Origin: Deltaproteobacteria bacterium
GTDB taxonomy: Bacteria > Desulfobacterota > Syntrophia > Syntrophales > UBA2192
NCBI GenBank assembly: GCA_012728915.1
Contig: JAAYEC010000061.1
Location: 1 to 58,872 of the forward strand
Length of the DNA: 58,872 nucleotides
Direction: 5' to 3'
Shown here: positions 23,990 to 53,335 of the stretch, piece after piece
How positions within the stretch are numbered: position 1 is the stretch's first letter
How the letters are laid out: the number at the start of each line of letters is the position of its first letter
The notes under the pieces: generated by a model
What the model saw: the letters and a program-made list of their open reading frames with translations, nothing else
Told to the model about the DNA's origin: nothing
Databases searched by the model: none
Program-made: the position numbers and the translations under genes

Positions 23990-24005
23990 AGCAAAACCCT
24001 TGCCA
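23990..24005 (-). promoter_or_regulatory. Sigma-54-type -24/-12 promoter before the PHP gene
   Basis: Minus strand TGGCAAGGGTTTTGCT: GG and GC are 10 bp apart as required, close to the consensus TGGCACG-N4-TTGCW. Predicted start is some 35 bp before the ATG at 23944. It would serve the PHP-WbqC-PIG-L-DegT-WecA run. Confidence 0.6.
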
Positions 24006-24071
24006 GATTGGCACGTTAAGTAGAAAAAAATACGGGGATCCCCCGGCGGGAAACGGGGGCATCGGGGGGGA

Positions 24072-25295
24072 TCAGCGGTCGGCGAGGCAGCGCTCGGGAA
24101 CCTTGCGGTCTGCCGGGTGCGGGGCGAATTCGGCGTAGAGGGCCTCGATTTTCCGGACCATGGCCGCGGCCCCGTAGTCGCCGGCCGTCGCGGCGGCCCT
24201 TGCGGCCATGCGGCGGGCCGCCTGCGGGTTTTCCAGCAGGAAGAGGATCCGGTCGGCCAGCGCCTGCGGGTCGGCGGGCGGAACGAGGAACCCGCTCACC
24301 CCGTCGTCGACGAGGTCGATCAGGCCGCCCACGCGGCTTGCGACGACGGGTTTCTCCAGGGCCATGGCCTCCACGAGGGCCTTGCCCATCCCCTCGTTGA
24401 TGGACGGAAAGGCGAAGCAGTCGAAGGCGCTCGTCATGCGGGCCGCGTCGGGGCGCCACCCGGGAAAGCGGATGTGGGAGCCGATCCCCAGCGCCGCAGC
24501 CTGCGCCCGCAGCGGCTCGAGCATCTCGCCCGCCCCCAGGAAGACGAACACGCACTGCGGACAGCGGTCTATCACCTGCCGCGCCGCGGCCATCAGGACC
24601 CCGGGGCCCTTGATGGCGGTGAGCCGCCCCACGGTGCCCACGGCGAAAGACCCTTCCGGGATGCCGAGGCTCCGGCGCGCCTCGTCCCTGGCGGCCTTCG
24701 CCGCCGCGAAGGGAGCCAGGTCGACGCCGCTGTGGATCGTGACGAACATCTCCGCGGGCGCGATGCCGACGCGAAGGTGATCGATCCGCTCCTGCTCCGT
24801 CAGCATCACGAGCCGGTCCGTGACCAGGGCGGAGAGCTTCTCGAGGAGCACGAAGAAACGGGTCGCGGCGGGCCCGAAGTACCCCCAGAAGACGTGGCCG
24901 TGAGGGGTATGGAGGATGACCGGCACCCCCGCCAGCCAGGCCGCCCAGCGGCCGACGATCCCCGCCTTGGAGGTATGCGTGTGGACGATCCGGGGCCGTT
25001 CGCGACGGAAGAGCCGCCAGAGGCGGAACAGGGCGGTCAGATCGTTGACGGGGCTGACCCGCCTGACCAGTTCCGCCAGGGTCAGGATTTTGACTCCCCG
25101 GGCCCGGAGGCGTGCCAGGTTCTCCTCGACACAGGCCCGCTCTTCCGGGCCCATGTCGGATTCCTCCGATGCCCCGACGACCAGCTGGATCTCGTAGGAT
25201 CCCGGGTCGAGGCCGAGCGCCGTGAGGCAGGTGTTCTCGGCGGAACCGCCCTTGTCGAAACGGGTGATGACGTGGATGACGCGAATCCTGCTCAT
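24072..25295 (-). CDS. Glycosyltransferase family 4
   Basis: About 407 aa GT-B enzyme. N-terminal acceptor domain begins RVIHVITRFDKGGSAENT; the C-terminal nucleotide-sugar domain holds VGTVGRLTAIKGP, RFPGWRPDA and PSINEGMGKALVEAMALEKPVV, with the conserved E-x7-E. HTHTSKAG is also typical. ATG 25295 is coupled to asnB by a 4-bp overlap. It probably adds one sugar to the lipid-linked unit at the cytoplasmic face. Confidence 0.93.
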   Translation of the reverse strand: MSRIRVIHVITRFDKGGSAENTCLTALGLDPGSYEIQLVVGASEESDMGPEERACVEENLARLRARGVKILTLAELVRRVSPVNDLTALFRLWRLFRRERPRIVHTHTSKAGIVGRWAAWLAGVPVILHTPHGHVFWGYFGPAATRFFVLLEKLSALVTDRLVMLTEQERIDHLRVGIAPAEMFVTIHSGVDLAPFAAAKAARDEARRSLGIPEGSFAVGTVGRLTAIKGPGVLMAAARQVIDRCPQCVFVFLGAGEMLEPLRAQAAALGIGSHIRFPGWRPDAARMTSAFDCFAFPSINEGMGKALVEAMALEKPVVASRVGGLIDLVDDGVSGFLVPPADPQALADRILFLLENPQAARRMAARAAATAGDYGAAAMVRKIEALYAEFAPHPADRKVPERCLADR

Positions 25296-27208
25296 GCGCT
25301 TCCTACCATGTAGTTTTCGTGCCAGACCTGGAAGGCCACGAGGTTCCAGAGCTGCCAGGAGGGGTCCCGGCGCCGCTGGCGGAAGTCCTCGACGAGGCGC
25401 GCGACGGCCCGGGCGTCGAAGATCCCCTGGCGGCTGAGCCGCCCCGCCTCGAGCGTCTCGTCGATCAGTCCGCCCAGCTCGTTGCGCAGCCAGGCCGAGA
25501 CGGGCATTTCGAAGCCCCATTTCGGGCGGTTGTGCAGCAGGGGCGGCAGCAGGTCCTTGAAGGTCTCCACGAGGATGACCTTCCCCCGGCCGTTGCGCAG
25601 CTTCCGGTCCCCGCTGATGGAGAAGGCCAGCTCGCAGACCCGGTGGTCGAGGAAGGGCACGCGGACCTCCAGGGAGTTCAGCATGCTTGCGTGGTCGACC
25701 TTCCTGAGCATGTCGCCGGGAAGCGATTCCTTCACGTCGGCGTAGAGCATCCGGTTGATGTTGTCGTCGTCCCGCTCCCGGAGCCTGTCCCGGACAATCG
25801 CCTCGCCCAGGTCCATGCGCACCTCGGGCCGCTCACGGAGGAGTTCCTCCCTTGCGGCGCGGTCGAAGATCTCATTCCAGGCCAGGAACCGCCGCTCGAA
25901 GGGCTGCCCCGCCCCCCGGATGAACTTCTTCATGCGGCGCGCATAGTCGGTCCGCAGGGTCTCCCGGGAATCTGGAAGCCTTTCGGCCAGGGGCTCGATG
26001 AGGACCCGGCGCAGGAAGCCCGGGATGAGGCGGTAGAGCGAGGCCCAGCGCTCGCCGGCATACATCCGGTAACCGGCAAACAGCTCGTCGCCGCCGTCGC
26101 CCGAGAGGGCCACCTTGACGCTCCTCGCCGTCTCGCGGGCCACGATGTAGGTGGGCAGCGCGGAGGAGTCGGCGAAGGGCTCGTCGAAGGACTCGAGAAC
26201 CGCGGGGACGGCCTCCAGGACGTCGCGGGCGGTTAGGGCGATCTCCCGGTGCTCGGTGCCGTGAAACCGGGCCGCCTCGCGGGCGTAGGAGCGCTCGTCG
26301 AAGAGCGGCATGTCCGCAAAGCCGATCGTGAAGGTCTGCACGGGCCGCGGGGAGTGCCTCGCCATGAGGCCCACGACGATGCTCGAGTCAATGCCGCCAC
26401 TGAGGAAGGCCCCCACGGGAACGTCGGCGGCCATGTGGCGCCGAACGGCGGCGTCAAGGGCCTCGAACAGGAGCGCCTTCTGCTCCTCACGATCCGCCTC
26501 GCCGGAAGCCGCATCACGCCTGCGGTCGATGTTCCAGTATTCGGTCACGCTCAGGGCCCCGCCCCGAAAGCAGAGGGTCTGCCCCGGCAGGAGCTTCCGG
26601 ATGCCCTGGAAGATGCTCCAGGGGGCGGGGATGTAGTTGAACGTGAGGTAAAGCCCGAGGGCCTCCCAGTCGATCCGCCTCTCCACGCCGGGGTGCTGCA
26701 GGATCGACCGGATCTCCGAGGCGAAGAGCAGCGTGCCGCCGTCGTGCCGGTAGACGAGGGGCTTGATGCCGATGCGGTCGCGGCTCAACACGAGCGCCCC
26801 CGTCCTTTCGTCCCAGAGGGCGAAGGCGAACATGCCCGCGAGCCGCCTCGCGCAGGCTTCCCCCTCTTCCTCGTAGAGATGGACGATGACCTCGCTGTCG
26901 GTATGAGAGCGGAAGCGGTGGCCCCTGTCCTCCATCTCCCTGCGGAGCTCGGCGTGGTTGTAGATCTCGCCGTTGAAGACGAGCCACACGGTGCCGTCTT
27001 CGTTGGAAAGCGGCTGGCGGCCGGTCTCGGTCAGATCGATGATGGAGAGCCGGCGATGCCCAAGCCCCACGGACGGCCCGGAGCCCGGGCGCAGGTACAG
27101 GCCGGACCCGTCGGGGCCCCGGTGGGTCATGACGTCCGTCATGCGCCGCAGGACCGCCTCGTCGACCCCGCCGCCGTTTGTCGTGATGACTCCGCAGATC
27201 CCGCACAT
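25292..27208 (-). CDS. asnB: Glutamine-hydrolysing asparagine synthetase (AsnB-like)
   Basis: 638 aa. Ntn-type glutaminase domain with the nucleophile Cys2 (MCGICGV) and RLSIIDL, FNGEIYN motifs, then an ATP-pyrophosphatase synthetase domain with SGGIDSS (270-276) and SGDGGDELFAGY. AsnB paralogues are frequent in EPS loci, especially XrtA-type ones, where they may amidate a sugar acid rather than make free asparagine (inference). ATG 27208 is fixed by the catalytic Cys2. It lies 5 bp after the methyltransferase and overlaps the GT4 gene. Confidence 0.94.
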   Translation of the reverse strand: MCGICGVITTNGGGVDEAVLRRMTDVMTHRGPDGSGLYLRPGSGPSVGLGHRRLSIIDLTETGRQPLSNEDGTVWLVFNGEIYNHAELRREMEDRGHRFRSHTDSEVIVHLYEEEGEACARRLAGMFAFALWDERTGALVLSRDRIGIKPLVYRHDGGTLLFASEIRSILQHPGVERRIDWEALGLYLTFNYIPAPWSIFQGIRKLLPGQTLCFRGGALSVTEYWNIDRRRDAASGEADREEQKALLFEALDAAVRRHMAADVPVGAFLSGGIDSSIVVGLMARHSPRPVQTFTIGFADMPLFDERSYAREAARFHGTEHREIALTARDVLEAVPAVLESFDEPFADSSALPTYIVARETARSVKVALSGDGGDELFAGYRMYAGERWASLYRLIPGFLRRVLIEPLAERLPDSRETLRTDYARRMKKFIRGAGQPFERRFLAWNEIFDRAAREELLRERPEVRMDLGEAIVRDRLRERDDDNINRMLYADVKESLPGDMLRKVDHASMLNSLEVRVPFLDHRVCELAFSISGDRKLRNGRGKVILVETFKDLLPPLLHNRPKWGFEMPVSAWLRNELGGLIDETLEAGRLSRQGIFDARAVARLVEDFRQRRRDPSWQLWNLVAFQVWHENYMVGSA

Positions 27209-27213
27209 ACCCT

Positions 27214-28110
27214 TCAGCCCGTTTTCCCTGCTTTTCGCGCCGTCACCTCCAGGGAGGGTCCCCAGAGGAGCCGGCCGGCACTGAGACGCTCGGCGGATTT
27301 CGCCCCGCACCACACCGCCCGACGCAACGCATGCAGGACCTTTGTCCGCCCCGTGTGCCGGCGATACCCGCTGAATCCGGAAAGGCCGGCATTGCGGATC
27401 TCGATCCGTGAGAACCCCCGGTCGGAAAGAACCCTCGTCAGCCAGGCCGCGGACAGGACGTAGTTGTGGAAGACCACGACCCGCCCGGTGCTTCCGTTCA
27501 GGCCGCAGGACGCCAGGAGCCGGCAGAGGGCCATGTGAAACGGACCGTTGGGCACCCGCACGTAAAGCACGCCCCCGTCCCTCAGCAGAGACGCCGCTCT
27601 CGTCGCGTCTTTCCAGGGTTCGGCGAGGTGATCGAGCACGTTGATCATCGTGACGGCGTCATACCGCGTTCCCGGGTCGAAGTCCTCCAGGGTCCCCTGG
27701 ATGCCCGCATCTCCGATCGTCGCGTGGAGATACTCGATCGATTCCCTGGAGGGGTCGATCCCCTTCGCGTCCCAGCCCCGCTTCAGCGCCTCGCGCAGGA
27801 AGAGCCCGCAGCCGCAGCCCACGTCGAGCAGCCGCCCGCGGCGCCCCTCCTGCCCCTCGATCCGGTCGAGCGCCTCGCGGTAGATCCCGTCGCGGTAGCC
27901 CTCCAGCTGATCCCAGGCCAGTTCCCGGTAATACTCGTCCTCGTAATAACGGCGTTCCTCGGCGGCGGCTTCCGGCGCATCGAGGCCGTCGCGGAACACG
28001 AGCCGGCAGCTCGAGCAGTGGAAAAACCGCCGCCTGCCCGCGGCGAGGCCGGGGAAGGCCTGTTCCAGGCAGTAGGGACACCGGCGGGACTCGACGGACT
28101 GGTTCATCAT
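27214..28110 (-). CDS. Class I SAM-dependent methyltransferase with N-terminal zinc-ribbon-like motif
   Basis: About 298 aa. CPYC and CSSC pairs near residues 10-35 resemble a zinc ribbon; the Rossmann core follows with LLDVGCGCGLFLREA (SAM motif I) and YDAVTMINVLDHLAEP. It likely methylates a sugar or terminal residue of the glycan. The start is ATG 28110 (ATGATG), overlapping the upstream GT2 stop by one base (TGATG). One of three methyltransferases of this layout in the locus (also 30962-31885 and 42164-43201). Confidence 0.88.
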   Translation of the reverse strand: MMNQSVESRRCPYCLEQAFPGLAAGRRRFFHCSSCRLVFRDGLDAPEAAAEERRYYEDEYYRELAWDQLEGYRDGIYREALDRIEGQEGRRGRLLDVGCGCGLFLREALKRGWDAKGIDPSRESIEYLHATIGDAGIQGTLEDFDPGTRYDAVTMINVLDHLAEPWKDATRAASLLRDGGVLYVRVPNGPFHMALCRLLASCGLNGSTGRVVVFHNYVLSAAWLTRVLSDRGFSRIEIRNAGLSGFSGYRRHTGRTKVLHALRRAVWCGAKSAERLSAGRLLWGPSLEVTARKAGKTG

Positions 28111-28994
28111 CAGGCCCCCGGGAGCCACGGCGTCGATCCGGCCAGTGTCGCAGCAGGCTGATACTCCGCACGCTTGCCGAGTCTCGACCGGAAACCGTCG
28201 TGCAAGCCTCGCAGGATCGCCTGCACCCTTCCGCTCTCGCTCCCGCGGACGAATGACAGCAGGAGGGCCATCTTCGCGGCATAGGCCAAGGTGCGTCGCA
28301 GTTCAGCCCGTCGCCCGTGCAAGCGGTAAGCATGAACGGAGTTTCGCACGGCGTAGTAGAACCGGTACGCCTCGGCATAGCAAGACACCTCGCGGCCGAA
28401 GACACGTATCCGCTGTTTGTCGTCCTTCCGCGCCTCCACGATCAGACTCCCCGGGACCCAGAAAAAGCGCCAGCCCCGAGCGGCCATGCGCAGCGAGTAC
28501 TCCGCGTCGTCGGCATATAGAAAGTATTCCGTCCGGGGAAGCCCCGCCTGCCTCACGGCCTCGGCCCTCATGAGCGTCCCCCGCCAGGCGAAACACGCAA
28601 TCGGGGTGGGGCCGGCATCGGGATGGTCCGGGCCGACTGCACGCACGGCGCCCACGCAACCTTCACTCGCCTCGAGATCCCGGAGACCCCGGCAGAGGGT
28701 CTCCAGCGCATCGACGGGCATCCGTACGTCGTCGTCGAGGGTCAGAATGGCATCGCCCCTCCCTTCCAGAGCCCGTTGCAATCCTGCATGGAAGCCGCCG
28801 GCGGACCCCTCGTTGGCCGCCATCCTCACGGTCTCGAGCCCCGGAAGCGTCGCGGCAAGGCGATCCGCCCAGGGCCTGGTTGAGTTGTCCACCACGATGA
28901 TGCGCTCCGGCACGAGGCTCTGACCCTGAAGGTCCCTCAAGAGATCCCGGAGCATCGCGGGATTGTTGAAGGTGACGATGACGGCGGTGATCAT
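28110..28994 (-). CDS. Glycosyltransferase family 2 (GlfT2/rhamnosyl-like)
   Basis: 294 aa GT-A enzyme. It opens with ITAVIVTFNNPAMLRDLL, then VVDNST, ANEGSAGGFHAGL and the DxD-like LDDDVRMP. These features resemble galactofuranosyl- and rhamnosyltransferases (inference by resemblance). GTG 28997 lies one codon upstream of ATG 28994; the ATG is preferred. The downstream methyltransferase is overlap-coupled. Confidence 0.9.
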   Translation of the reverse strand: MITAVIVTFNNPAMLRDLLRDLQGQSLVPERIIVVDNSTRPWADRLAATLPGLETVRMAANEGSAGGFHAGLQRALEGRGDAILTLDDDVRMPVDALETLCRGLRDLEASEGCVGAVRAVGPDHPDAGPTPIACFAWRGTLMRAEAVRQAGLPRTEYFLYADDAEYSLRMAARGWRFFWVPGSLIVEARKDDKQRIRVFGREVSCYAEAYRFYYAVRNSVHAYRLHGRRAELRRTLAYAAKMALLLSFVRGSESGRVQAILRGLHDGFRSRLGKRAEYQPAATLAGSTPWLPGA

Positions 28995-29018
28995 CACGCG
29001 GCGGCCCCTGGCGTTGTG

Positions 29019-29762
29019 TCAATGCGTTGCAGGTTGATACGGCCGGATCAGGCCAATTCCGCCGAATTGAGACCGCCGGTCTTCCACGAGCTCGACAGAA
29101 TCAAAGGAGCCGCGGATCTCGTTCCAGAACCGGTTTACCTCGCAGCCGCTCTCGGCGGAATGGGGCACGATGTCGTGCAAGCCGATCATGCCACCGGGAC
29201 GGACGAGCGTCCGGTAGATCTCGAAATCCCTTTTGACCCCGTCGTAGCTGTGGTCCCCGTCGATGAACAGGAAATCGACCTTCCGGCCCCCGAGAACATC
29301 CAGCAGTGCCTTCAGGGTGGACGGGTCGTGCGAGTCCCTGCGCAGCAGGTGGATCCGCTGGCCGGGCCTGGCAAAGGATCGGTACAGAGGGATCCGCCAC
29401 ACCGGGTAACCGCCCCCGAACCCCCCCCCGGGAAGGTCGATGCTGACGAGCACCGCATCGGCGGAAGCGGCCCGGGTCAGCATGAAGAGCGTCCCCCCGG
29501 AGGCCGTGCCGATCTCCACCACCGTCGATGGGTTGAGCCGCCGGACTTCCCCGAGCAACGCCTCGAGCTCCAACCGGCTTTGCAGAGGCCGGATGAACCG
29601 CATGGCCGGGGAGAAGACTTTCGTCAGGGCGGTCTCGAAGCCCGGGGCTCCCCGGAGCTGCCGGATCGCATTTCGGCACGCCAGGTAGGACACCGCTTTC
29701 ATCGGCAGTTCGATGAAGGTCCGCTCGAAACCGGCACGGACGGCCGGGCTGCTCGTGCTCAT
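29019..29762 (-). CDS. Class I methyltransferase (Methyltransf_24/CmcI-like)
   Basis: 247 aa. Core motifs VVEIGTASGGTLFMLTRA (SAM site), VDFLFIDGDHSYDGVKRDF and GGMIGLHDIVPH fit the cephalosporin-hydroxylase/macrocin-type methyltransferases acting on O atoms of sugars or small molecules, usually metal-dependent. The first about 60 residues form a helical extension. It overlaps the upstream GT9 gene by 4 bp. Confidence 0.88.
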   Translation of the reverse strand: MSTSSPAVRAGFERTFIELPMKAVSYLACRNAIRQLRGAPGFETALTKVFSPAMRFIRPLQSRLELEALLGEVRRLNPSTVVEIGTASGGTLFMLTRAASADAVLVSIDLPGGGFGGGYPVWRIPLYRSFARPGQRIHLLRRDSHDPSTLKALLDVLGGRKVDFLFIDGDHSYDGVKRDFEIYRTLVRPGGMIGLHDIVPHSAESGCEVNRFWNEIRGSFDSVELVEDRRSQFGGIGLIRPYQPATH

Positions 29763-30856
29763 GAATGCCCCCTGACTGTGATGATCTCTTTCCTGTGCGG
29801 CCGGGTCTCAAGCAGGCTGCGGCAGCCTTCAAGGACCTCCTCGGCCGTGATCATGTCCATGCAGCGCGGTTGCGGGCAGCCGCCCTGCGGGCAGGGGCGA
29901 CAATCGATTTCGCGCCAGATGAGCCTGCTGCCTGCGGGCGGGGCGCAGGGACCGAACTGTCCGGGCAGGGTGGGCCCGAACAGCGCCACCAATGGCGTGC
30001 CGGCCGCGGCACCGATGTGCATGGGCCCGCTGTCGTTGGTCACAAGCAGGTTCAGACGGCTGATGACGTAGACCAGGTCATCGAGGCTCAGCTTCCCCGA
30101 CAGGTTGACGACCGGGTAGCGCATCCCCCGCTCGACGGCACCGGCAACTCCCGTCTCAGAAGGGCCGCCCAGGAGGATGATTCTGGCCCCCTCGCTCTCG
30201 ATGAGCCGGTCTGCCACGCGACTGTACCGCCCGGGATCCCATCGCTTGAGCAATTGATCGCTTCCCGGGTTGATGCCCACGATAGGGTTGCCCGATCCCT
30301 GGGGAAGATCCGAGAAGAACCCTTCCCAGCGGCACTCGACGGCACGATCCCAAAAAACATCGACCCCCGCGTCGTCGGGAACCCCACCGGCCGCCACGGC
30401 CACCTTCAGGATGGCCTCGGCAAAATGACAGTCTGCAAAGGTTCCCCGCGCGATCCGTTCCGTGAGAAAAAGGCCGAAGCCGTGCTGGTCATGGCCGGCG
30501 CGATGCCGTGCCCGGATCGCCTGGAACAGCAGCCCCATCTTGAGGGCCCCGGCGACAGATTCGACGCTGTAGAGATTCACCGCTGCCCGAAATCGGAAAT
30601 GACGAAGCCGGCGGATGAGACCCAGCATGGCAAGGGCATACGCCTTGTCCCCGCGGAGCTCACGGATCGGGAACGGCCATACTCGGTCGACATAGGGGTA
30701 GTGCCGGGCGAGCGGCGCCGCATCGGTGCTGGTGAGCAGGTGGATCTCCGCCTCCGGGTATCCGTTCCGGATCGCGCGGATACCCTTCGAGGCGAGGATC
30801 AGGTCGCCGATCCCGGCGACGAGTACGATGAGGATACATTCCCGTTGCACTGGCAT
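29759..30856 (-). CDS. Glycosyltransferase family 9 (heptosyltransferase-like)
   Basis: 365 aa GT-B enzyme. N-terminal ILIVLVAGIGDLILASKGI and C-terminal GINPGSDQLLKRWDPGRY, ILLGGPSETG and LVTNDSGPMHIGAAAGTPLVALFGPTLPGQFGP are GT9 hallmarks. A Cys-rich C-terminal segment (DCRPCPQGGCPQPRCMD) resembles that of several LPS heptosyltransferases. ATG 30856 is preferred to an in-frame TTG at 30865. A sigma-54-like element lies at 30914-30929. Confidence 0.92.
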   Translation of the reverse strand: MPVQRECILIVLVAGIGDLILASKGIRAIRNGYPEAEIHLLTSTDAAPLARHYPYVDRVWPFPIRELRGDKAYALAMLGLIRRLRHFRFRAAVNLYSVESVAGALKMGLLFQAIRARHRAGHDQHGFGLFLTERIARGTFADCHFAEAILKVAVAAGGVPDDAGVDVFWDRAVECRWEGFFSDLPQGSGNPIVGINPGSDQLLKRWDPGRYSRVADRLIESEGARIILLGGPSETGVAGAVERGMRYPVVNLSGKLSLDDLVYVISRLNLLVTNDSGPMHIGAAAGTPLVALFGPTLPGQFGPCAPPAGSRLIWREIDCRPCPQGGCPQPRCMDMITAEEVLEGCRSLLETRPHRKEIITVRGHS

Positions 30857-30913
30857 GGGCCGCAAAGGGTTCCTGACCTTTCCGCGAATATTCCGTCAAT
30901 CTCAACAGTTTTG

Positions 30914-30929
30914 AGCAAGAAACATACCA
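30914..30929 (-). promoter_or_regulatory. Sigma-54-type element before the GT9 gene
   Basis: Minus strand TGGTATGTTTCTTGCT with GG-N10-GC spacing and a perfect TTGCT. Predicted start is some 47 bp before ATG 30856. The sequence ATGTTTCTTGC is shared with 31927-31942. Confidence 0.5.
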
Positions 30930-30961
30930 CAGGCGGTTCGGATCGCCGAGGCGGCGCAGGC

Positions 30962-31885
30962 TCAGGATCCGCTTTCCGGTACGGCGTAGACGGTGATTTC
31001 CTTGTGCAGGTTGACGGCGGAGCGCACGTGCTGGAGAATTCTTTTCAGCGGCCACAACAGGTTCACGTGACGGGCAATCAAGCTTCGGGGGTCGCGTATG
31101 CCCGCTTTCTTCATCAGGGCCGCCCCTCCCGTTCCGCCTCCTTTGCGTGTCTGGATCGGTCGGAATCCCGACTGCCGAAGAGCCCTGGCGAGTGTCGTCT
31201 CGTTGAAATAGAACAAATGAAGGGGAACAGCCTGGAAGACATAGTCCGGCGCGCTGATCGGGGTCGGAACGGCAATAACGGTCAGCCCGTCCGGTTTGAG
31301 GATTCTGCGGATTTCGACAAGGGTCGCCAGGGGGGCGGGAATGTGCTCGAAGACGTGCCAGAGCGTCACCACGTCAAAATGCCGATCGGGGAACCCGGCG
31401 TCCCCGAGCGGTCCGGTGAAGACCTCGACTCCGAAGCGCTGTCGGGCGTAACGCGCTTCAACGGACGACAATTCCACGCCCTGCGCCTCCCAACCCCGCC
31501 GTTTGCACCGATCGAGGAAAAACCCCCAGGCACAGCCGATATCGAGGATCCTTCCCCTCCGGGCGAACCACTCGATCCGGTCAAGTTCCTCGTCGAAGCG
31601 GACCCGATGAACGGGGAGTTCGCGGCTCGGATCGTCAGCCGGATGAACAGGTGAGTGGGCCCGATCGTCATAGCAGGAAAGCAGATCCGCGGTCTCGGGG
31701 AACGGGTGCACGACGAGCAGGCCGCAATGTTCGCAGCGGACATAGCCGAAGCGGCCGCCGGGCAGGACGGGCCGGTGCAGCACATACCCGCAGAGCCGGC
31801 AGGAATTCGGCGCCGATCCACGGACCGGCCGCAGGACGCCGGGTTCCCGAGCATCTTCCTCACGGCCCCGCAACAGCATATCCAT
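30962..31885 (-). CDS. Class I SAM-dependent methyltransferase with zinc-ribbon-like N-terminus
   Basis: 307 aa. CRLCGY and CEHCGL pairs (about residues 34-58) precede a methyltransferase core with ILDIGCAWGFFLDRCKRRGW (motif I) and FDVVTLWHVFEHIPAP. Architecture matches 27214-28110 and 42164-43201. GGAGGG lies at good distance upstream of ATG 31885. Likely acts on a glycan residue; regiospecificity unknown. Confidence 0.88.
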   Translation of the reverse strand: MDMLLRGREEDAREPGVLRPVRGSAPNSCRLCGYVLHRPVLPGGRFGYVRCEHCGLLVVHPFPETADLLSCYDDRAHSPVHPADDPSRELPVHRVRFDEELDRIEWFARRGRILDIGCAWGFFLDRCKRRGWEAQGVELSSVEARYARQRFGVEVFTGPLGDAGFPDRHFDVVTLWHVFEHIPAPLATLVEIRRILKPDGLTVIAVPTPISAPDYVFQAVPLHLFYFNETTLARALRQSGFRPIQTRKGGGTGGAALMKKAGIRDPRSLIARHVNLLWPLKRILQHVRSAVNLHKEITVYAVPESGS

Positions 31886-31926
31886 CCTCGTCCCTCCTTC
31901 TCGTCGTCCTGATCTCTCTCGGTCTT

Positions 31927-31942
31927 TGCAAGAAACATGCGG
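31927..31942 (-). promoter_or_regulatory. Weak sigma-54-like element before a methyltransferase
   Basis: Minus strand CCGCATGTTTCTTGCA. The -12 half (TTGCA) is perfect and CATG fits, but the key GG is CG. It is listed because it shares ATGTTTCTTGC with the better site at 30914-30929 and lies about 40 bp before the start. Confidence 0.3.
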
Positions 31943-31957
31943 TACCGTGATCGTGTA

Positions 31958-33571: not shown

Positions 33572-33613
33572 GATCAATGCCCCCTTTCCTCCCCGGTCCG
33601 GTTCCGCGGCTTC

Positions 33614-34729: not shown

Positions 34730-34739
34730 GCTCCGCTCG

Positions 34740-35582
34740 TCACTCCTCCACAGTTTTTCTCCAGTAGGCGCTGCAGGAATCGATGATCCTGATCTCCTCA
34801 TCGATGCCGTGGGCCAACCGGTACTCTTCCACGGCCAGGCGGCAGGGTCCCAGGAAAAAGTCGTCGATGATGCAGAACCCTCCCGGCGAGAGCTTCGGAT
34901 AGAGATTCTCCAGCGCATCCATCGTCGATCCATACATATCGCCGTCGAGCCGCAGGATGGCCAGCTTGCCGATCGGTGCCGTCGGGAGCGTGTCCCTGAA
35001 CCACCCCTGCAGGAAGATCACCCGGTCATCGAGGAGACCGTACTTCGCGAAATTCCTCTCCACCTCCTCCCGGGACACTGCGAGATACGGGATCCGGTGA
35101 AAGATGGAATCGCGGTCCGCTGGACAGGCCCGGGAGTCCGGCTCGGGCAGACCCGCGAATGAATCAGCAACGAAAACGCTCCGGTCTTCGTCCCCGTAGG
35201 CCGCCAGAGCGGCGCGCATGAAGATGCAGGCCCCTCCCCTCCAGACACCCGTCTCGATGAAATCCCCCTCGATTCCCTCGGCCAGGACCGTCTCCACGGC
35301 CGACTGAAGCTGATCGAGGCGCCTCATCCCGATCATGGTGTCGGCGTAAAGGGGCCAGATCTGCCCGTTGCTTCTCTGGTAATCGGTAAGGTGTCTTCGC
35401 TTCATGACGACAAGGTCTCGCGTCGCGAGCGCCCGTGACAGCATGAGAACGGCTGCCCGCTTGAACAGGCTCCGCGTCTCGTTGAACAGGGTGATGGGGA
35501 CCGGCGGCTCCTGCCAGAGACTGTAGGACAGAGTCTTTTTCAGCAGATCCAGGTAGAGTTTCACGGACTCCGGTTTCATCAT
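34740..35582 (-). CDS. TylF/MycF-family sugar O-methyltransferase
   Basis: 280 aa. The TylF pattern is visible: TMIGMRRLDQLQSAVETVL, GDFIETGVWRGGACIFMRA (SAM site), VADSFAGLPEPD, LAILRLDGDMYGSTMDALENLYPKL and FCIIDDF (metal-binding acidic residues). Family members O-methylate deoxysugars on macrolides with Mg2+. Here the likely acceptor is a sugar of the EPS unit. AGGGAGG is seven bases before ATG 35582. Confidence 0.92.
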   Translation of the reverse strand: MMKPESVKLYLDLLKKTLSYSLWQEPPVPITLFNETRSLFKRAAVLMLSRALATRDLVVMKRRHLTDYQRSNGQIWPLYADTMIGMRRLDQLQSAVETVLAEGIEGDFIETGVWRGGACIFMRAALAAYGDEDRSVFVADSFAGLPEPDSRACPADRDSIFHRIPYLAVSREEVERNFAKYGLLDDRVIFLQGWFRDTLPTAPIGKLAILRLDGDMYGSTMDALENLYPKLSPGGFCIIDDFFLGPCRLAVEEYRLAHGIDEEIRIIDSCSAYWRKTVEE

Positions 35583-35585
35583 ACA

Positions 35586-41971: not shown

Positions 41972-41982
41972 GGAATGTGGAA

Positions 41983-43201: not shown

Positions 43202-43221
43202 TGCCCGCGGGCATCCCGTAA

Positions 43222-44775: not shown

Positions 44776-44834
44776 GCGCTGTCCGTTCCTGATCAGGGGC
44801 GCACCCGGGCGTACACCGGCCGGAGACGCGTGAT

Positions 44835-46241: not shown

Positions 46242-46330
46242 CCGTCTCGTCTCGACCCTTCGATTTCCCGCCCTCCCTGCCGACCGTTGCAGAGCGGGCG
46301 AAGGAAGCGGGGTTCCACCCCTGTCAGACG

Positions 46331-46347
46331 ATGCAAAAACCAAACCA
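46331..46347 (-). promoter_or_regulatory. Sigma-54-type element before the wzy-like gene
   Basis: Minus strand TGGTTTGGTTTTTGCAT with GG-N10-GC spacing and perfect TTGCA. About 90 bp before ATG 46241, within a 187-bp gap that otherwise shows nothing. Confidence 0.5.
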
Positions 46348-46428
46348 CGGCGCGATTGGCGTCTTCCGACAGGGAGTCACCGGATGAGGCGGGGATACGC
46401 TGTTGCGGGGAAGCGTGCGGCGGGGCGG

Positions 46429-46707
46429 CTATCGACCGCTCGATGAGTACGTTTGCTTTTCGGCGGCCTCCTTCATCCGCTGCATCTCATGATACTTGCG
46501 TTCGATGTCCTTCGGCCGGTAGGAACGGTCCTCGAGGTTCTCGAAAATCCCCGCAAAGCAAACAAGGATCAGAGAGGTGAGGGCAGCGGCAGCGAGGATG
46601 ACGAGAAACCACTTCCACGTGATCCCCCTTCCTTTCGCCCGGACCCGTCGCCTCTTTCGCACCAGCCCGGAAGAAGCGGCTCTTTCGTCGGCCCTGGTCT
46701 CATCCAT
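46429..46707 (-). CDS. Small single-pass membrane protein next to the Wzz-BY-kinase
   Basis: 92 aa. A basic cytoplasmic N-terminus (RKRRRVRAKGR, 17-27), one transmembrane helix (about 31-53) and a charged, probably helical periplasmic tail (RPKDIERKYHEMQRMKEAAEK). Starts 6 bp after the BY-kinase stop, so it belongs to that operon. I recognise no family. The topology and the tail after the helix resemble the C-terminal extension of the neighbouring kinase (its residues 790-845), hinting at a related or interacting element. Confidence 0.7.
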   Translation of the reverse strand: MDETRADERAASSGLVRKRRRVRAKGRGITWKWFLVILAAAALTSLILVCFAGIFENLEDRSYRPKDIERKYHEMQRMKEAAEKQTYSSSGR

Positions 46708-46713
46708 CTCCCG

Positions 46714-49386
46714 CTACTCTTTGCGCTCCGGCGTCGCGGCAGCGGCGACGACGGGTTTGGGTGACCCTTCGGTGGCCCAAGGCGTCGAGGGTTCCTGTTG
46801 TCCCTCAGCTTGCCCGACTGCGGGAACATCCACCCCGAGTCCCGTTGCGGCCGCTGCAATCCGGTTCTCCCGTTGCATCGACTCCCCCCGGTGCTGGATC
46901 TTCCGGGCATCGAGGGGAGGCATGGCGAAATGGAGAACCCCCATCTGGTAGAGAATCCCGGCGATCAGGCAGGTGACGGCAATGAAAAACACGCTTGCCC
47001 GGACAATCGATGCCTTCTTCCCCTCGGCAGGGTCAGGCACGATGGAGGGGGGGGGGTTCCCTCCTCTCCGGAATCGATCCCGCAGTGACCGGAAGGCCAT
47101 CGACGTCCCGGATTTTTGCGCCGCTTCCCTTTCGGGCCAGCCCCTGACGAGCCCGAGGCGGGACTTCAGCAGCTCCGGGATGGCCCGGATTCTGTCAGAG
47201 GGCGTTTCAGGCGTGCCGTCCGCCTTCTTGGAGGAAAAGTAGTAGTAGTACTTGTACTTGTAGTCGGCATAATCGGTGCTCAATTCCGCCTTCAGGCCGT
47301 TGAGGATGACGCCGATCACGTTGGCCTTGACGTTGTCGAGCTGTGCCTTGGCGCGCTTGAGCACCCCGCGGGGAATCCGGCCGACGCGATACACCATCAC
47401 CACGGCGTCGGCCTTGGCGGACAGAAGCGCCGCGTCGGTGGCGGCCAGCAGCGGGGGCGCGTCAATGAGCACGTAGTCGTAGGCTGCACGCACCTCCGCG
47501 ATGAACTCGCCGATCGCCTTCGAGTAGATCAGCTCCGCCGGGTTCGGCGGGATCGTCCCCGACGAGAGGATGTGGAGATTCTCGATGCCGGGGGTCTGCA
47601 GGATGTCCTCGGTACTGAGCGCGCCCGTCATGATATCCGAGATGGTCCGGACGACCTTCCGCCACTCGTAGCTTCCCAAAAGCACGTCAGAGAGTCCGGG
47701 CACGTAGTCCATGCCGAACATCCGGGAGATCATCGGCTTGCGCAGGTCGCCTTCGATGAGCAGGACACGGTTCCCCCCCTGCGCCATGGTGATGGCGAGG
47801 TTGACGATGGATGTCGTCTTGCCCTCCTCGGGCGAGGAGCTTGTCAGGACGATCGTCTTGATGTCCTTGTCGAGACAGGCGAAGGCCAGATTCGTCCGGA
47901 TGGCGCGGTAGCTCTCCGCGAGGCGCGACTTGGGCGCGAAGTGCGAGACGAGACGTGCTCCACGTTCGGCAACCTCCGTGTCCACGTCATCCGCATATTT
48001 TTCCCGGAGCGTCTCCTTGATCTCCTGCTGGCTCACGTGGGGGATGAGGCCCAGGACGTGGGCGCCCAGAAGGCTCTCGATCTCTTCGATGGCCCCCAGC
48101 GAGGTGTCGAACATCTCGACGAGGAAGGCCAGGGCGATGCCGAGAATCAGGCCGATCAGGAATCCCGCGAAGGCTTTCTCCTTGATCTTGGGGGCATTCG
48201 ACGGGACCCGCGACTCCAGGGCGGGCCGGATGACTTGGACGGTCTCCACCCGCTCGGCGTTCGTGATCTGGGCCTCCTGGTGCTTGCGCTCCAGCATGTT
48301 GAACAGTTCCTGGTTCAACTGGATCTGCCGCTCGAGCCGCGAGAGCTCCAGTCGCTTCTCCGGGAACATCTTGACCTGGGTGCTCGTCTCGTCGATCTTC
48401 CCCTTGAGGTCTCGGATGTCCTCGCGCAGTCCCGCTTCATAGGCGGACATCTGCCCCTTCATGGTGACGAGGATCTCTTCGATCTGCTTGCGGATCTCGG
48501 CCACCTGGGGGTAGAGCTCCGTGTAGGTCTTCAGGAGGGTGTCGCGCTCGAGCATGAGCTGGACGAGCTTGTCGTTGAAGGACTTGTACGCTGCGGGGGC
48601 GTCTTCAAAATAGAAGCTTGTCTTGGAGCCGAGGAGCGTCGACCCGGCGCGGTCGAGCAGGCGCCGGGTGTCGGCCGCCTTCTGCGCGTTGGCCACGGCC
48701 TTGTCGTGGGCTGCCTGCAAGGACTGCAGCTTCGTGACCATGGCATTGCTCTCGGCGTCGATGGAGACGAGTTGGTTCTGCTCCCGGTAGGCCTTGGCTG
48801 CCTCCTCGGAGGCTTTGAGCTTTTCCCGGGCCTGGTTGAGCTGTGTCTCGATGAAGCTCTTCTGGCTCACGGCGCGCCGGTTGCTGTCGTTGATGCGCTC
48901 CTCCCGGTAGACCTCGGCCAGCGTATTGGCCAACCGCATCGCCAGGCGGGAGTCCTGGGATTGCACGTGGATGTTGAGGACCCCGATCTGCTGCTCGAAG
49001 TCCGACTCCACCATGCTGCGGAGGCTCAGAACCGTGGCCAGGTATTCCTTGTTGGCCCGCACCTCCTCGGAGGTCAGGTTGGCGGGAATCATGCCGAGTT
49101 TTTTCGCAGCCTTTTCGACGATCCCGTGGCTCCGTGCCACGGCGGCCTGCGCCGTCAGCATGTCCGCGTTGTTCCACGGCATCGATTCCTGGTAGATGCC
49201 CCCGCCCGAAAGCATGACCCGCTCGAGCCTCACGCTTGCCGTGGACTTGTACAGCGGCACAGGCTTGTTCAGCAGGGCAAAGAGCGTGCTGAAGGTGCCC
49301 GTCAGCAGGAGCGTGACGAGGATGATCCAGCGCCGCTTCTTGATGATCCGCCAGTATTCGCGCAGGTTGAGATCGTATTGGGCCAT
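46714..49386 (-). CDS. Fused Wzz/GumC chain-length protein and BY-type tyrosine kinase with extra C-terminal membrane tail
   Basis: 890 aa. Wzz domain with TM1 (20-40), long periplasmic coiled coil (about 165-385), TM2 (405-425) and a cytoplasmic kinase: Walker A SSPEEGKTTS (517-526), Walker A' VLLIEGDLRKP (541-551) and Walker B VLIDAPP (639-645). A Tyr cluster (TDYADYKYKYYYYF, 704-717) is the expected autophosphorylation site. Unusually, about 170 residues follow it, including a third hydrophobic helix (about 794-816) and an Ala/Pro-rich tail predicted periplasmic. Walker A' has Glu where Asp is usual. It controls EPS polymerisation and export with Wza, 1 bp upstream. Confidence 0.93.
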   Translation of the reverse strand: MAQYDLNLREYWRIIKKRRWIILVTLLLTGTFSTLFALLNKPVPLYKSTASVRLERVMLSGGGIYQESMPWNNADMLTAQAAVARSHGIVEKAAKKLGMIPANLTSEEVRANKEYLATVLSLRSMVESDFEQQIGVLNIHVQSQDSRLAMRLANTLAEVYREERINDSNRRAVSQKSFIETQLNQAREKLKASEEAAKAYREQNQLVSIDAESNAMVTKLQSLQAAHDKAVANAQKAADTRRLLDRAGSTLLGSKTSFYFEDAPAAYKSFNDKLVQLMLERDTLLKTYTELYPQVAEIRKQIEEILVTMKGQMSAYEAGLREDIRDLKGKIDETSTQVKMFPEKRLELSRLERQIQLNQELFNMLERKHQEAQITNAERVETVQVIRPALESRVPSNAPKIKEKAFAGFLIGLILGIALAFLVEMFDTSLGAIEEIESLLGAHVLGLIPHVSQQEIKETLREKYADDVDTEVAERGARLVSHFAPKSRLAESYRAIRTNLAFACLDKDIKTIVLTSSSPEEGKTTSIVNLAITMAQGGNRVLLIEGDLRKPMISRMFGMDYVPGLSDVLLGSYEWRKVVRTISDIMTGALSTEDILQTPGIENLHILSSGTIPPNPAELIYSKAIGEFIAEVRAAYDYVLIDAPPLLAATDAALLSAKADAVVMVYRVGRIPRGVLKRAKAQLDNVKANVIGVILNGLKAELSTDYADYKYKYYYYFSSKKADGTPETPSDRIRAIPELLKSRLGLVRGWPEREAAQKSGTSMAFRSLRDRFRRGGNPPPSIVPDPAEGKKASIVRASVFFIAVTCLIAGILYQMGVLHFAMPPLDARKIQHRGESMQRENRIAAAATGLGVDVPAVGQAEGQQEPSTPWATEGSPKPVVAAAATPERKE

Positions 49387-49387
49387 A

Positions 49388-50590
49388 TCAGTATTTCAGG
49401 AATCGCAGGTTCTGGTTGTCCCCGTACGCGTCGCGGTACGATGCGGGCTTCAGCAGGTAATCGAGAAGCGGCAGGGTGTTCGTGATCCACTCGTTGACGT
49501 CGCCGATGAGGATCCGCGGCACCCAGACGATGTCGCCGTTTCTGAGCGCCACGTTCTGGGCGATGTCGCCCCTCTTCGTGATGTCGTCGTAGCTGGCCGA
49601 CAGGATCTGGGGATCGCCCTTCCGTTCCTGGTATTCGCGGATGATCTTGATGTCCGACTTCACGGCCAGCCGTGTCGGCCCGCCGGCCAGGGACAGAGAG
49701 GCCAGGAGGTCGCTGGCGTCCTTCAGCCGGTAGATGCCCTGCGCGTTCACTTCCCCGAGCACGTAGACCCGTTCGCCGAAGACGGGAAGCTCGGGCACGG
49801 TCACCATGTCCCCCGCGTCGAGGATCACGTTCTGGCCGACGTCGCCCTTGAACATGACGTCGTAGAGGTTGAGCGTGTAGCGCCTGCCCCTGCGCAGCAG
49901 CTCTACGTTGCGCAGGTCCGCGTTGCCCCCCTCGTCCCCCACGACGACCTGCGTCTGGCCGGTTCCCGTATAGGCGCCGCCTCGGCCCGTGACGGGGCCG
50001 CCCGCCGAGACGATGAGGTCCAGCACGGTCGTCTTCCCCTTCAGGGGATATTTCCCCGGCCCGGAGGGCCCGGGGGAGATCTTGTTGATCTGGCCAAAGA
50101 GCAGGACCGTTTTGCTCCGGTATTCCTTGACGACGACCTCGAGCCTCGGGGCCCGGATGTACTGCTTGAGGCCCTCCATGAGTGCCTCGTGAAGCTCGCC
50201 GACCGTGCGGCCGCTCACGGGCACGTCGTCCATGAAAGCGTAGGAGATCTTGCCGTCGGCGCGAACCTCCGCGAGGTGCTCCGTGCTCTTGGCCCCCTCC
50301 CAGTAGGTGATCTTCAGCACGTCGCCGGGGCCGATCAGGTATTCCGGTGTCCCCCGCCGCTCCGTGAAGGCGAGGTTGCCCGTGACGGAGGCCATGGCCG
50401 CGATGTCCTTTTCCTGCTGAAGGCGGGCTTTCTCGGCCGCGGCCACATCCTCGGCCGTCGGCTTGAGCGTCTTGACGGGCACACCCCTGGCCTCGAAGAC
50501 ATGCGGGACGTAGCTGCTGCACCCGGAAAGGCAGACTGCGACCGCACCGAGCAATGTTGCAAGGATTGCATTCGCCAATCGACTGGACAT
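49388..50590 (-). CDS. Polysaccharide export lipoprotein (Wza/PES family, SLBB domains)
   Basis: 400 aa. Signal peptide with lipobox LSGCSS, then a Poly_export domain (about 95-185; YLIGPGDVLKITYWEG) and SLBB-type domains (about 190-350; VLDAGDMVTVPELPVFGERVYVLGEV). It forms the periplasm-spanning outer-membrane channel for EPS. ATG 50590 has AGGAG upstream. Unusually for the family the C-terminus lacks an obvious long amphipathic helix. First gene of the wza-wzz/BYK-small protein run, with a sigma-54-like element at 50628-50643. Confidence 0.94.
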   Translation of the reverse strand: MSSRLANAILATLLGAVAVCLSGCSSYVPHVFEARGVPVKTLKPTAEDVAAAEKARLQQEKDIAAMASVTGNLAFTERRGTPEYLIGPGDVLKITYWEGAKSTEHLAEVRADGKISYAFMDDVPVSGRTVGELHEALMEGLKQYIRAPRLEVVVKEYRSKTVLLFGQINKISPGPSGPGKYPLKGKTTVLDLIVSAGGPVTGRGGAYTGTGQTQVVVGDEGGNADLRNVELLRRGRRYTLNLYDVMFKGDVGQNVILDAGDMVTVPELPVFGERVYVLGEVNAQGIYRLKDASDLLASLSLAGGPTRLAVKSDIKIIREYQERKGDPQILSASYDDITKRGDIAQNVALRNGDIVWVPRILIGDVNEWITNTLPLLDYLLKPASYRDAYGDNQNLRFLKY

Positions 50591-50627
50591 TACGACTCTC
50601 CTGCGCAGGATGAACGGAATCATGACA

Positions 50628-50643
50628 TGCCAACATCATGCCA
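50628..50643 (-). promoter_or_regulatory. Sigma-54-type -24/-12 promoter before wza
   Basis: Minus strand TGGCATGATGTTGGCA: good -24 half (TGGCATG), GG-N10-GC spacing, one mismatch in the -12 half. It sits some 40 bp before ATG 50590. A short palindrome GGAAATGTTTCC (50651-50662) lies just upstream and could be an activator site. Confidence 0.55.
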
Positions 50644-50776
50644 AATAACGGGAAATGTTTCCGTGTACGGTTCTTGCATTACTTGGGCTGGACCCCCTGT
50701 GTCCGGGAGCCGAGCCGCTCGTCTCGGCCGATGGCGCAACGGAGGCCCCACTACACAGGAAAGAGGCGGACGTCCC

Positions 50777-51799
50777 ATGGTACGATACGTCGACCTGATC
50801 ACAGATGCCGTGCAGAGCGGCAGAAAAGACGACGCGGCCCAGTCGCCCGCGTCGGCGATCCCCGAATCCTTTTTTTCCCGGGCCGCGCAGGCGCCCGCCG
50901 TGAAGGAGCCCGATTCCGACAGGGACGTCTACCTCGCCCTGTGGAAGCAGATGCAGTCCATCAAGGCTGGCATCCGGGAAAAGACGGGGTTCGACATCCT
51001 GCCCCTGAAGGAGCAGGTCCGAGCGATTGCGGGCAGCCCCGACCTGCTCGACCGCCTCTACCACTACACGACCCGGTTCGGAAACGAGGAGGACTACACC
51101 GCCTCCCATTCGATCAACACGATGATCTACGCCCTGAAGATCGCCCTGCGGCTGGAGTACGCCCCGGAGGATCTCGAGGCGCTGGGGCTGGCCGCCCTCC
51201 TGCACGATGTGGGCATGTTCGCCGTCCCCGACTCGATCCTCCTCAAGCCCGAGCCCCTTTCCCCCGGGGAAGCGGAGGCTGTCCGCAGGCACCCCGAGGC
51301 CGGCCGCGACACGCTCGCCCCCTGGAGCGGCGAGATGCCCTGGCTCGCCCAGACGGCCTTCGAGCATCACGAGCTCGAGGACGGAAGCGGGTATCCCCGT
51401 GGGATTCGGGGCGAGCAGATCTCCGAGTTTGCGAAGATCGTCGGCCTGGCGAGCACCTACGAGGCCATGACACACGACAGGCCCCATCGGCGATGCGTGT
51501 CGGTCCGGGAGCTGATCGACACGAAAAACCGATCCTTCTCCCCGCGCGTGATGCGGGCGTTCCTGGAGCAGATCTCCCTCTATCCCCTCGGGAGTCTCGT
51601 CCGGCTCAATAACCGGACCCTCGGCAGGGTCGTCCGGACCCATGCCGGGCAGCCGCTCCGGCCGGTTGTGCAGATCATGGAAGACGCAGACGGCAACCGG
51701 GTCGCGGAAGACAGGACCGTCAACCTGCTGGGCAACCCGATCCTGTGGGTGACGGGGGCCGTCTCGGAGGAGGAGCTGGCGCGCCTCACGAAAGAATAG
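50777..51799 (+). CDS. HD-GYP domain protein (probable c-di-GMP phosphodiesterase)
   Basis: 340 aa. The HD-GYP core runs from about residue 105 to 240: His111, HDVGMF (His143-Asp144), RHPE (His172), HHE (197-199) and GSGYP (203-207). The residues for metal and c-di-GMP hydrolysis appear intact. The N-terminal about 100 residues are not a recognisable sensor and the C-terminal about 80 residues form a beta-rich add-on. It is divergent from wza across a 186-bp gap, implying that EPS output responds to c-di-GMP. ATG 50777 is preceded by a GA-rich stretch. Confidence 0.9.
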   Translation: MVRYVDLITDAVQSGRKDDAAQSPASAIPESFFSRAAQAPAVKEPDSDRDVYLALWKQMQSIKAGIREKTGFDILPLKEQVRAIAGSPDLLDRLYHYTTRFGNEEDYTASHSINTMIYALKIALRLEYAPEDLEALGLAALLHDVGMFAVPDSILLKPEPLSPGEAEAVRRHPEAGRDTLAPWSGEMPWLAQTAFEHHELEDGSGYPRGIRGEQISEFAKIVGLASTYEAMTHDRPHRRCVSVRELIDTKNRSFSPRVMRAFLEQISLYPLGSLVRLNNRTLGRVVRTHAGQPLRPVVQIMEDADGNRVAEDRTVNLLGNPILWVTGAVSEEELARLTKE

Positions 51800-51876
51800 A
51801 CGTCGGAAAGGCCAGGGGATTCGGAACGTTGGAGAAACGGGCGGAATGCGGCGCGCCGCGAGCCCGTCCAGGCCTC

Positions 51877-52731
51877 TCAGCCTCCCGGCTTCGCGGCTTC
51901 CTGCGCCGGTTCTGAGTCCGTGGGATCATCGCCCGGCATGGCCGTGTCCTCGATGGCGGTCCGGGCGACCGCCGCGTCGATTCGTTCGGCCTGCATCCCG
52001 AACCCGATCAGCAGGCACATGTCGCAGAGGTTGTTCACCCTGCGGTGCACGCCCCGGGTCTGGCGGTGAATCTCCTCGAGGGCATCGCGCGTGAAGATCT
52101 CGCGCTTCGCCCCGGCCCGGCCGAGCCGGAAATGGACGTACTGTATCATCTCGTCGATCCCGAGCGGCCCCAGGTGGTAGCGGATGGCGATCCGCGAGTC
52201 GAGCTGTTCGATGCGCCTGACGATGCCCCGCAGCTCCGGCTGGCCGATGAGCAGCAGGTTCAGCAGGAACCGGTCGTTGAACTGGTAGTTCAGCAGCAGG
52301 CGCACCTCCTCGAAGTTCGTCGGCGAGAGCAGCTGCGCCTCGTCGATCACGAGGACCGTCGACCGGCCATCCTTGAAGTCCTTCATCATCATCTCGCCCA
52401 GCGTGTTCAGCAGCTCGTGCTTGGAGTGCGAGGCCGGGTCGAGGCCGAACTGGTAGAGGATCTCCCGGATGAACTCGATGGGCTCGAGCATGGGGTTCGT
52501 AATGAGCCCCACGTGGTGCTCCTTCTGCCCGAGGCTCCGGATGAAGGCGCGCGACAGGGTCGTCTTGCCGCAGCCCACGTCTCCCGTGAGCAGGGCGGCC
52601 CCCTTGCGGCGCTGGACGGCGTAGGCGAGCCGAGTCATCCCCTCGCGGTAGTCGCCCGAGTTGTAGATAAATTTCAGATCCGGAACGATCTCGTAGGGGA
52701 AGACGTCCAGGCCCCAGTACTCTAGATACAT
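51877..52731 (-). CDS. ExeA/XrtA-associated-type AAA ATPase
   Basis: 284 aa. It begins with the family-typical MYLEYWGLDVFPYEIVPDLKFIY; Walker A is GDVGCGKT (50-57), Walker B VLVIDEAQ (126-133), with an arginine-finger region near RIEQLDSRIAIRY. Members are GspA/ExeA and the putative secretion ATPase of PEP-CTERM/exosortase EPS loci; they lack the peptidoglycan-binding domain of ExeA, as here. Its start overlaps the phosphatase stop by 10 bp. Position close to wza and BYK fits the EPS-associated subtype (inference). Confidence 0.9.
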   Translation of the reverse strand: MYLEYWGLDVFPYEIVPDLKFIYNSGDYREGMTRLAYAVQRRKGAALLTGDVGCGKTTLSRAFIRSLGQKEHHVGLITNPMLEPIEFIREILYQFGLDPASHSKHELLNTLGEMMMKDFKDGRSTVLVIDEAQLLSPTNFEEVRLLLNYQFNDRFLLNLLLIGQPELRGIVRRIEQLDSRIAIRYHLGPLGIDEMIQYVHFRLGRAGAKREIFTRDALEEIHRQTRGVHRRVNNLCDMCLLIGFGMQAERIDAAVARTAIEDTAMPGDDPTDSEPAQEAAKPGG

Positions 52732-53195
52732 CGAAGCAACCCTTCCAGCGAGAAGTAGATCTCCGCAAAACAGGTCCGGTAGTGATAGGGCGTCTTCCCG
52801 TAGGGGTCCCGGATGTCCGGATCGGCCCCGCCGCCGCCCTGTGCGGAAAAGGATTTCAGGAGTCGGACCTTGCCCGCCGATCCGGGGTGCCGCCTGAGCA
52901 CCTCGTCCCGCTGGGCCTCCTCCATGACGAGGACCCAGTCGGCCCGTTCGACCATGTCGGCCGTCAGGGCGCGCGACCGGTGACGGCCGGCCTCCATGCC
53001 TTTTTCCCGGAGAGCCGCGGCGGCCTGCGGATCGGCTTCCGCGCCCCCGAGATCGAGCAGCCCGGCCGATGCCGCCTCAGGGCCGGACAGCCCCGCCTGC
53101 CTCGCGAGCTTGCGAAACGCCTGCTCGGCCATGAAGCTCCGGCACAGGTTTCCCGAGCAGACAAAGAGGATCATCTTCGGCGCCGGCTTCGTCAT
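52722..53195 (-). CDS. Low-molecular-weight protein-tyrosine phosphatase (Wzb-type)
   Basis: 157 aa. The P-loop CSGNLCRS (Cys13-x5-Arg19) and the acid loop DIRDPYGK are intact. Such phosphatases dephosphorylate the Tyr cluster of BY-kinases during EPS export cycles; the partner kinase is at 46714-49386. ATG 53195 starts just before the first beta strand. A good sigma-54-like element (53244-53259) precedes it, and the ATPase gene is coupled downstream. Confidence 0.93.
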   Translation of the reverse strand: MTKPAPKMILFVCSGNLCRSFMAEQAFRKLARQAGLSGPEAASAGLLDLGGAEADPQAAAALREKGMEAGRHRSRALTADMVERADWVLVMEEAQRDEVLRRHPGSAGKVRLLKSFSAQGGGGADPDIRDPYGKTPYHYRTCFAEIYFSLEGLLRCI

Positions 53196-53243
53196 CACGG
53201 ACTCCGTTTCCCGCCCCGAGGTCGAGGCATCGCAGACACAGGG

Positions 53244-53259
53244 TGCAAAACCCATGCCC
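53244..53259 (-). promoter_or_regulatory. Sigma-54-type -24/-12 promoter before the phosphatase gene
   Basis: Minus strand GGGCATGGGTTTTGCA: matches TGGCACG-N4-TTGCA except for two bases, with GG-N10-GC spacing. The predicted start lies about 38 bp before ATG 53195. It resembles the site at 23990-24005. Confidence 0.6.
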
Positions 53260-53319
53260 TGCCGCGACAGCCATGGGAAGGCCTTGCCGCCGGGCGGGCG
53301 CCTCCGGCCGCGGATCGAT

Positions 53320-53335
53320 TGGCACATTTCCTGTA
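53320..53335 (+). promoter_or_regulatory. Possible sigma-54 promoter before the GAF-GspE gene
   Basis: TGGCACATTTCCTGTA: perfect TGGCAC -24 half but GT in place of GC at -12. About 65 bp before the chosen start at 53401. Confidence 0.35.

Follow-up and report, generated by a model that had tools for sequence, protein, structure and literature searches.

The EPS locus analysed here raises the question of how its genes are switched on. The original prediction was that sigma-54-like (-24/-12) elements precede its transcription units and could belong to a regulon of the XrtA/PEP-CTERM type, controlled by the PrsK/PrsR pair. The locus lies in a stretch of 58,872 nucleotides (the window), part of contig C55 of a 2.79 Mb draft assembly with 81 contigs. 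The nearest named relatives of the window are Syntrophales/Syntrophaceae MAGs.

The EPS locus and its -24/-12 elements

Genes cover 93% of the window, as determined with a home-made codon-usage gene caller. According to Pfam and NCBIfam searches, the minus strand of the EPS locus encodes proteins of export and assembly (a Wzx-like flippase, a Wzy/ligase protein of the ligase/polymerase kind, a Wzc-like tyrosine kinase, and an SLBB export protein) and transferases and modifying enzymes (GT4s, GT9s, a GT2, an amidotransferase, methyltransferases, and a metallohydrolase). An XrtA-ATPase-like protein and a low-molecular-weight tyrosine phosphatase (LMW-PTP) are encoded on the same strand. The genes that frame the elements are:

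22433..53195, minus strand: EPS locus (Pfam and NCBIfam family searches, gene calls)
22433-23944, minus strand: CehA/McbA-like metallohydrolase gene, behind the 23990 element
42164-43201, plus strand: methyltransferase gene inside the EPS locus
44835-46241, minus strand: O-antigen ligase/polymerase-like gene, behind the 46332 element
46714-49386, minus strand: tyrosine-autokinase gene, after the SLBB/Poly_export gene (domain matches)
50777-51799, plus strand: HD-GYP-like gene inside the EPS locus (gene caller and Pfam)
51877-52731, minus strand: XrtA-ATPase-like gene, after the LMW tyrosine phosphatase gene
53401-55710, plus strand: GAF-MshEN-PilB-like ATPase gene, start 53401 (supported by the protein of genus mate G004)

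The gene caller placed the start of the PilB-like gene too far upstream, at 53131, and the 53244 element was thereby counted as coding in the background-density sample described below. The MshEN domain of the PilB-like ATPase belongs to a c-di-GMP-binding family; its gene borders the EPS locus, with the HD-GYP-like gene nearby. This arrangement suggests c-di-GMP input. A gene for a 92-residue protein at 46429-46707, between the Wzc-like kinase and ligase genes, is conserved at 50-69% identity within the genus and has no match in Pfam.

The elements were scored with a sigma-54 prior matrix, which was written from general knowledge and is an approximation; the six main sites score 8.5-11.8.

23990..24005, minus strand: -24/-12 element TGGCAAGGGTTTTGCT; score 11.8; 46 nt upstream of the start at 23944
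30914..30929, minus strand: -24/-12 element TGGTATGTTTCTTGCT; score 10.3; 58 nt upstream of the GT9 glycosyltransferase gene 29759-30856
31927..31942, minus strand: weak candidate CCGCATGTTTCTTGCA; score 5.5; precedes the methyltransferase gene 30962-31885
41984..41999, minus strand: -24/-12 element TGGTGAGGTTTTTGCA; score 8.5; 24 nt upstream of the GT2 glycosyltransferase start at 41960
46332..46347, minus strand: -24/-12 element TGGTTTGGTTTTTGCA; score 8.9; 91 nt upstream of 44835-46241
50628..50643, minus strand: -24/-12 element TGGCATGATGTTGGCA; score 10.1; 38 nt upstream of the SLBB/Poly_export start at 50590
50663..50678, plus strand: divergent block GTGTACGGTTCTTGCA; score 3.8; precedes the HD-GYP-like gene 50777-51799
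53244..53259, minus strand: -24/-12 element GGGCATGGGTTTTGCA; score 10.0; 49 nt upstream of the LMW tyrosine phosphatase start at 53195
53320..53335, plus strand: divergent -24/-12 element TGGCACATTTCCTGTA; score 7.3; 66 nt upstream of the PilB-like ATPase start at 53401

In the consensus TGGCACG-N4-TTGCW, GG and GC are spaced by 10 bp; the six minus-strand sites carry both dinucleotides, and the 53320+ element carries GG and GT, its -12 half being TGTA. Same-strand genes start 24-91 nt downstream of all seven. The coordinates first reported for the elements are right to within one base (41984 and 46332 here, 41983 and 46331 there). The TTGC[AT] form of the -12 half, also part of the original description, is found at most main minus-strand sites and fails at 50628, where the half reads TGGCA.

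Five EPS-locus sites fit the core GGNNNGKKTYTTGCW, which has one further match in the genome of the window, so that five of six matches lie in the locus; the core was derived from these very sites, and its rarity elsewhere is descriptive and partly circular. None of the 28 noncoding sigma-54 sites of the background sample contains it. Each genus mate has 7-15 matches, the orthologous EPS sites among them, which is somewhat more than in a reversed control.

Placement and conservation of the elements

The number of matches in the window carries little information. With the prior matrix and a Markov null, seven matches scoring at least 8 are observed in the whole window (4.2 +/- 1.8 expected) and four scoring at least 9 (1.25 expected). 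Scores no better than those of shuffled sequence had been named in advance as grounds for rejecting the elements; read literally, this is close to what the match count gives, little above the null as it is, while the placement of the matches is strongly non-random. Because the counts barely exceed the null, they were dropped as evidence, and the signal was sought in placement and footprints. A second matrix was trained on PATSER scores from the literature (PMC3224663) and likewise set aside: it fits its training set but is under-determined, gives no excess in the window, and orders the sites less clearly.

In the interval 22401-53700, gaps on the correct strand account for 2.5% of positions, yet every one of the six matches scoring at least 8.4 falls into them (binomial P about 2e-10, for gaps curated by hand after the originally proposed sites were known). 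The best score of each of the six gaps has a P value of 0.0005-0.0065 against simulated gaps. An element occupies every gap of 100 bp or more before a minus-strand gene (six in all), gaps of 42 and 59 bp have none, and a 72-bp gap holds the weak 31927 candidate alone. The placement test thus bears out, for the six main minus-strand sites, the claim that the elements sit in real gaps, each before a minus-strand gene.

Orthologous loci were collected from five genus mates, and further contigs were found by pattern; the counts given here include the window. The 23990 element is present in five genomes, 30914 in three, 41984 in five, 46332 in six, 50628 in five, and 53244 and 53320+ in seven each, G004 included for both. 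In diverged gaps, the -24/-12 blocks have identities of 0.88-1.00, compared with 0.40-0.70 elsewhere. The GG and G-C/T of the two halves are constant at every site, with a spacing of exactly 10 bp. The block TGGCAAGGGTTTTGCTCATTCAGG at the 23990 site is identical in 5/5 genomes, and TGGTTTGGTTYTTGCAT at the 46332 site is present in 6/6. Among the 16-mers of their gaps, the 30914 element (compared in three genomes) and the 41984 element rank first in conservation, and the 53320+ element is the most conserved block of its gap, with 99% identity in six genomes. The contrast is weaker in the 53244 and 23990 gaps, in which 18/120 and 7/81 other 16-mers reach the value of the site.

Two rearranged loci preserve the elements. 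At the 23990 site of genus mate G002, coding sequence runs directly up to the TGG in place of the upstream spacer, yet neither the element nor the downstream leader has changed. In G004 (L173, 3850-5300), the EPS genes beside 53244 have been replaced by other sequence, and both divergent elements (53244 and 53320+) remain. The replacement sequence, read by eye, includes an apparent radical-SAM open frame.

Of the weaker relatives proposed originally, the 53320+ element is thus upheld. The 31927 candidate lacks the -25 G, has a gap P of 0.02 against simulated gaps, and shows no conservation in the loci of the genus mates, where the flanking gene differs; it is probably not a functional element. 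The 50663+ block, low-scoring and without the -25 G (the first G of the -24 half), has a gap P of 0.24, yet is kept in 5/5 genomes. Its -24 half may be defective or non-canonical, and we regard it as an uncertain candidate only.

Outside the genus, 19 related loci that passed a filter have no such sites: the more distant Syntrophales and Desulfobacterota loci among them have none, and the one exception is a separate sigma-54 site in three Sedimenticola loci. The Sedimenticola ATPase operons (L117, L118, and L119, at ~9880) have their own strong sigma-54 site about 100 nt upstream. Conservation of the EPS-locus elements, as judged from these sequences, appears limited to the genus.

Probable sigma-54 in the genome and competing readings of the elements

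Absence of rpoN had been named as a further ground for rejection. The draft assembly yielded no RpoN domain, but the neighbourhood of the gene is also missing, and rpoN is present in 6/6 genus mates. In G005, it lies in the context kdsA-kdsC-lptC-lptA-lptB-rpoN-hpf-ptsN-rapZ-dfp (gene names assigned by us from translated sequences). Searched against the draft, the whole 10-kb stretch of G005 from kdsA to dfp yields nothing beyond short ABC-ATPase-like matches. The absence of rpoN reads as an assembly gap, with a contig missing, because the joint loss of kdsA, lptB, and dfp is not biologically credible; in a draft genome with 20 sigma-54 activators, it should be read in this way. The draft lacks the kdsA-lptB-rpoN-rapZ-dfp segment although it is rated 100% complete.

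The 20 activators were identified as full domains, 18 of them with a GAFTGA-type loop. The suggested comparison with the genomic background is in favour of sigma-54 control: across 399 kb sampled from this genome, the density of sites with scores of 9 or more is 0.388 per kb in upstream noncoding DNA and 0.004 per kb in coding DNA, an about 90-fold difference, although part of the sample was chosen for holding activators, which may raise the site density.

We consider it highly likely that the elements are RpoN promoters that split the EPS locus into separate units, with a divergent promoter for the PilB-like gene. Six or more transcription units of one locus would each begin at their own RpoN promoter, and the 53320+ element would serve the PilB-like ATPase gene. 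On each element, the sigma-54 form of RNA polymerase would wait as a closed complex for an enhancer-binding protein to open it by ATP hydrolysis. A single signal could then turn on every part of the locus, from export and assembly to the transferases and the phosphatase. Placement, phylogenetic footprints, the 20 activators, and the rpoN genes of six genus mates agree with this part of the original prediction; the elements themselves and how well they are conserved are observed, while sigma-54 dependence and co-activation are inferred.

Chance matches in GC-rich DNA would account for a match number near the Markov null and are extremely improbable as the source of the elements, given the placement and the footprints in up to seven genomes; for the six main sites this reading is refuted, and for 31927 it is possible. 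Another reading takes the blocks for a different kind of control element in polysaccharide loci: an ops-like antitermination site, for example, or the operator of a repressor. They share the spacer KKTYTTGCW beyond what sigma-54 needs, and the subtype is nearly confined to the locus, a rarity weakened by the circularity noted above. The GG and G-C/T with their fixed spacing are kept everywhere, and the 50628 and 53320+ elements lack the shared spacer, which makes a non-promoter function very unlikely.

The remaining alternative is that PrsR binds upstream of the EPS promoters and activates sigma-54 there, as predicted at PEP-CTERM genes. A search for prsK and prsR elsewhere in the genome, as originally proposed, found both in tandem on contig C75 (14063-17649), above the NCBI curated cut-offs (PrsR 615.6 bits, cut-off 502.6; PrsK 387.5, cut-off 300). 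PrsR carries a GAYTGA loop. The cluster (C75, 11000-17700) continues downstream, on the same strand, with three genes whose products have the VPEP...RR tail of PEP-CTERM proteins; a sigma-54 site and a TTTACA box precede each of them. In the published arrangement, a motif 1 ending in TTTACA precedes a motif 2 (-24/-12) with a spacer of 32-92 bp at PEP-CTERM genes, which are predicted PrsR targets (Haft 2006, PMC1569441). Only one box on C75, at 54 bp, lies inside this range; for the other two promoters, the closest boxes are 118 and 132 bp away. A classical PEP-CTERM regulon beside prsK/prsR on C75 is plausible from these sequences.

The EPS locus lacks these marks. TTTACA is absent from the 160 bp upstream of all nine EPS-locus sites, as against its presence at 3/3 PEP-CTERM promoters. 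Four EPS-locus proteins fall below the XrtA-system cut-offs: the ATPase (228.9 bits, cut-off 324.5), the amidotransferase (580.6, cut-off 816.9), the chain-length protein (121.4, cut-off 278.85), and the kinase (126.2, cut-off 230.65). No match to the exosortase families TIGR02602 or PF09721 was found in the assembly, an incomplete draft; exosortases occur elsewhere in the genomes of G005 and G006. The PrsK/PrsR-type XrtA/PEP-CTERM regulon proposed for this locus is not borne out, and we judge control of the EPS promoters by PrsR unlikely. Because the TTTACA box is missing there, PrsR seems a poor candidate and the less likely activator of the locus.

As the original prediction stated, the part of the EPS locus in the window contains no activator gene. 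Among the neighbours listed for the genome's own activators, no EPS genes are obvious. An activator gene adjoining related EPS loci was considered and rejected, with one case only, beside a paralogous ATPase. Within 350 bp upstream, no 8-mer is shared by three or more promoters, and no dyad recurs. Some Desulfovibrio EPS promoters are likewise reported to have no recognisable activator site (PMC4641369). We speculate, with low confidence, that the whole EPS locus forms one regulon under a dedicated sigma-54 activator, distinct from the PrsR/PEP-CTERM regulon, and that its mark is the core GGNNNGKKTYTTGCW and not a box conserved farther upstream.

Comparison with known sigma-54 systems

The locus offers a clear comparative-genomic case of an EPS locus of Syntrophales, which are uncultured syntrophs, under probable sigma-54 control. 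It also sets apart two sigma-54 circuits that are easily merged: PrsR with PEP-CTERM genes, and another putative activator with the EPS locus. The PEP-CTERM/EpsH regulon with PrsK/PrsR (PMC1569441; Aquincola pepA, PMC9850573) has sigma-54 sites and a polysaccharide context in common with it, and another contig of this genome holds PrsK, PrsR, and PEP-CTERM genes with TTTACA and sigma-54 sites. In contrast to that regulon, the EPS promoters described here lack motif 1 and serve EPS biosynthesis units instead of single PEP-CTERM genes, and exosortase was not found in the draft.

Sigma-54 control of the bacterial exterior has been described (Francke 2011, PMC3162934), and EPS and biofilm operons of Desulfovibrio vulgaris are under DVU0110 and DVUA0057 (PMC4641369). 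Sigma-54 promoters precede the EPS and biofilm operons there as well, whereas the gene set and organism differ, and in the Syntrophales locus the promoters tile the whole locus, and five share one core subtype. This locus is a new example of an established theme, the control of EPS genes by sigma-54.
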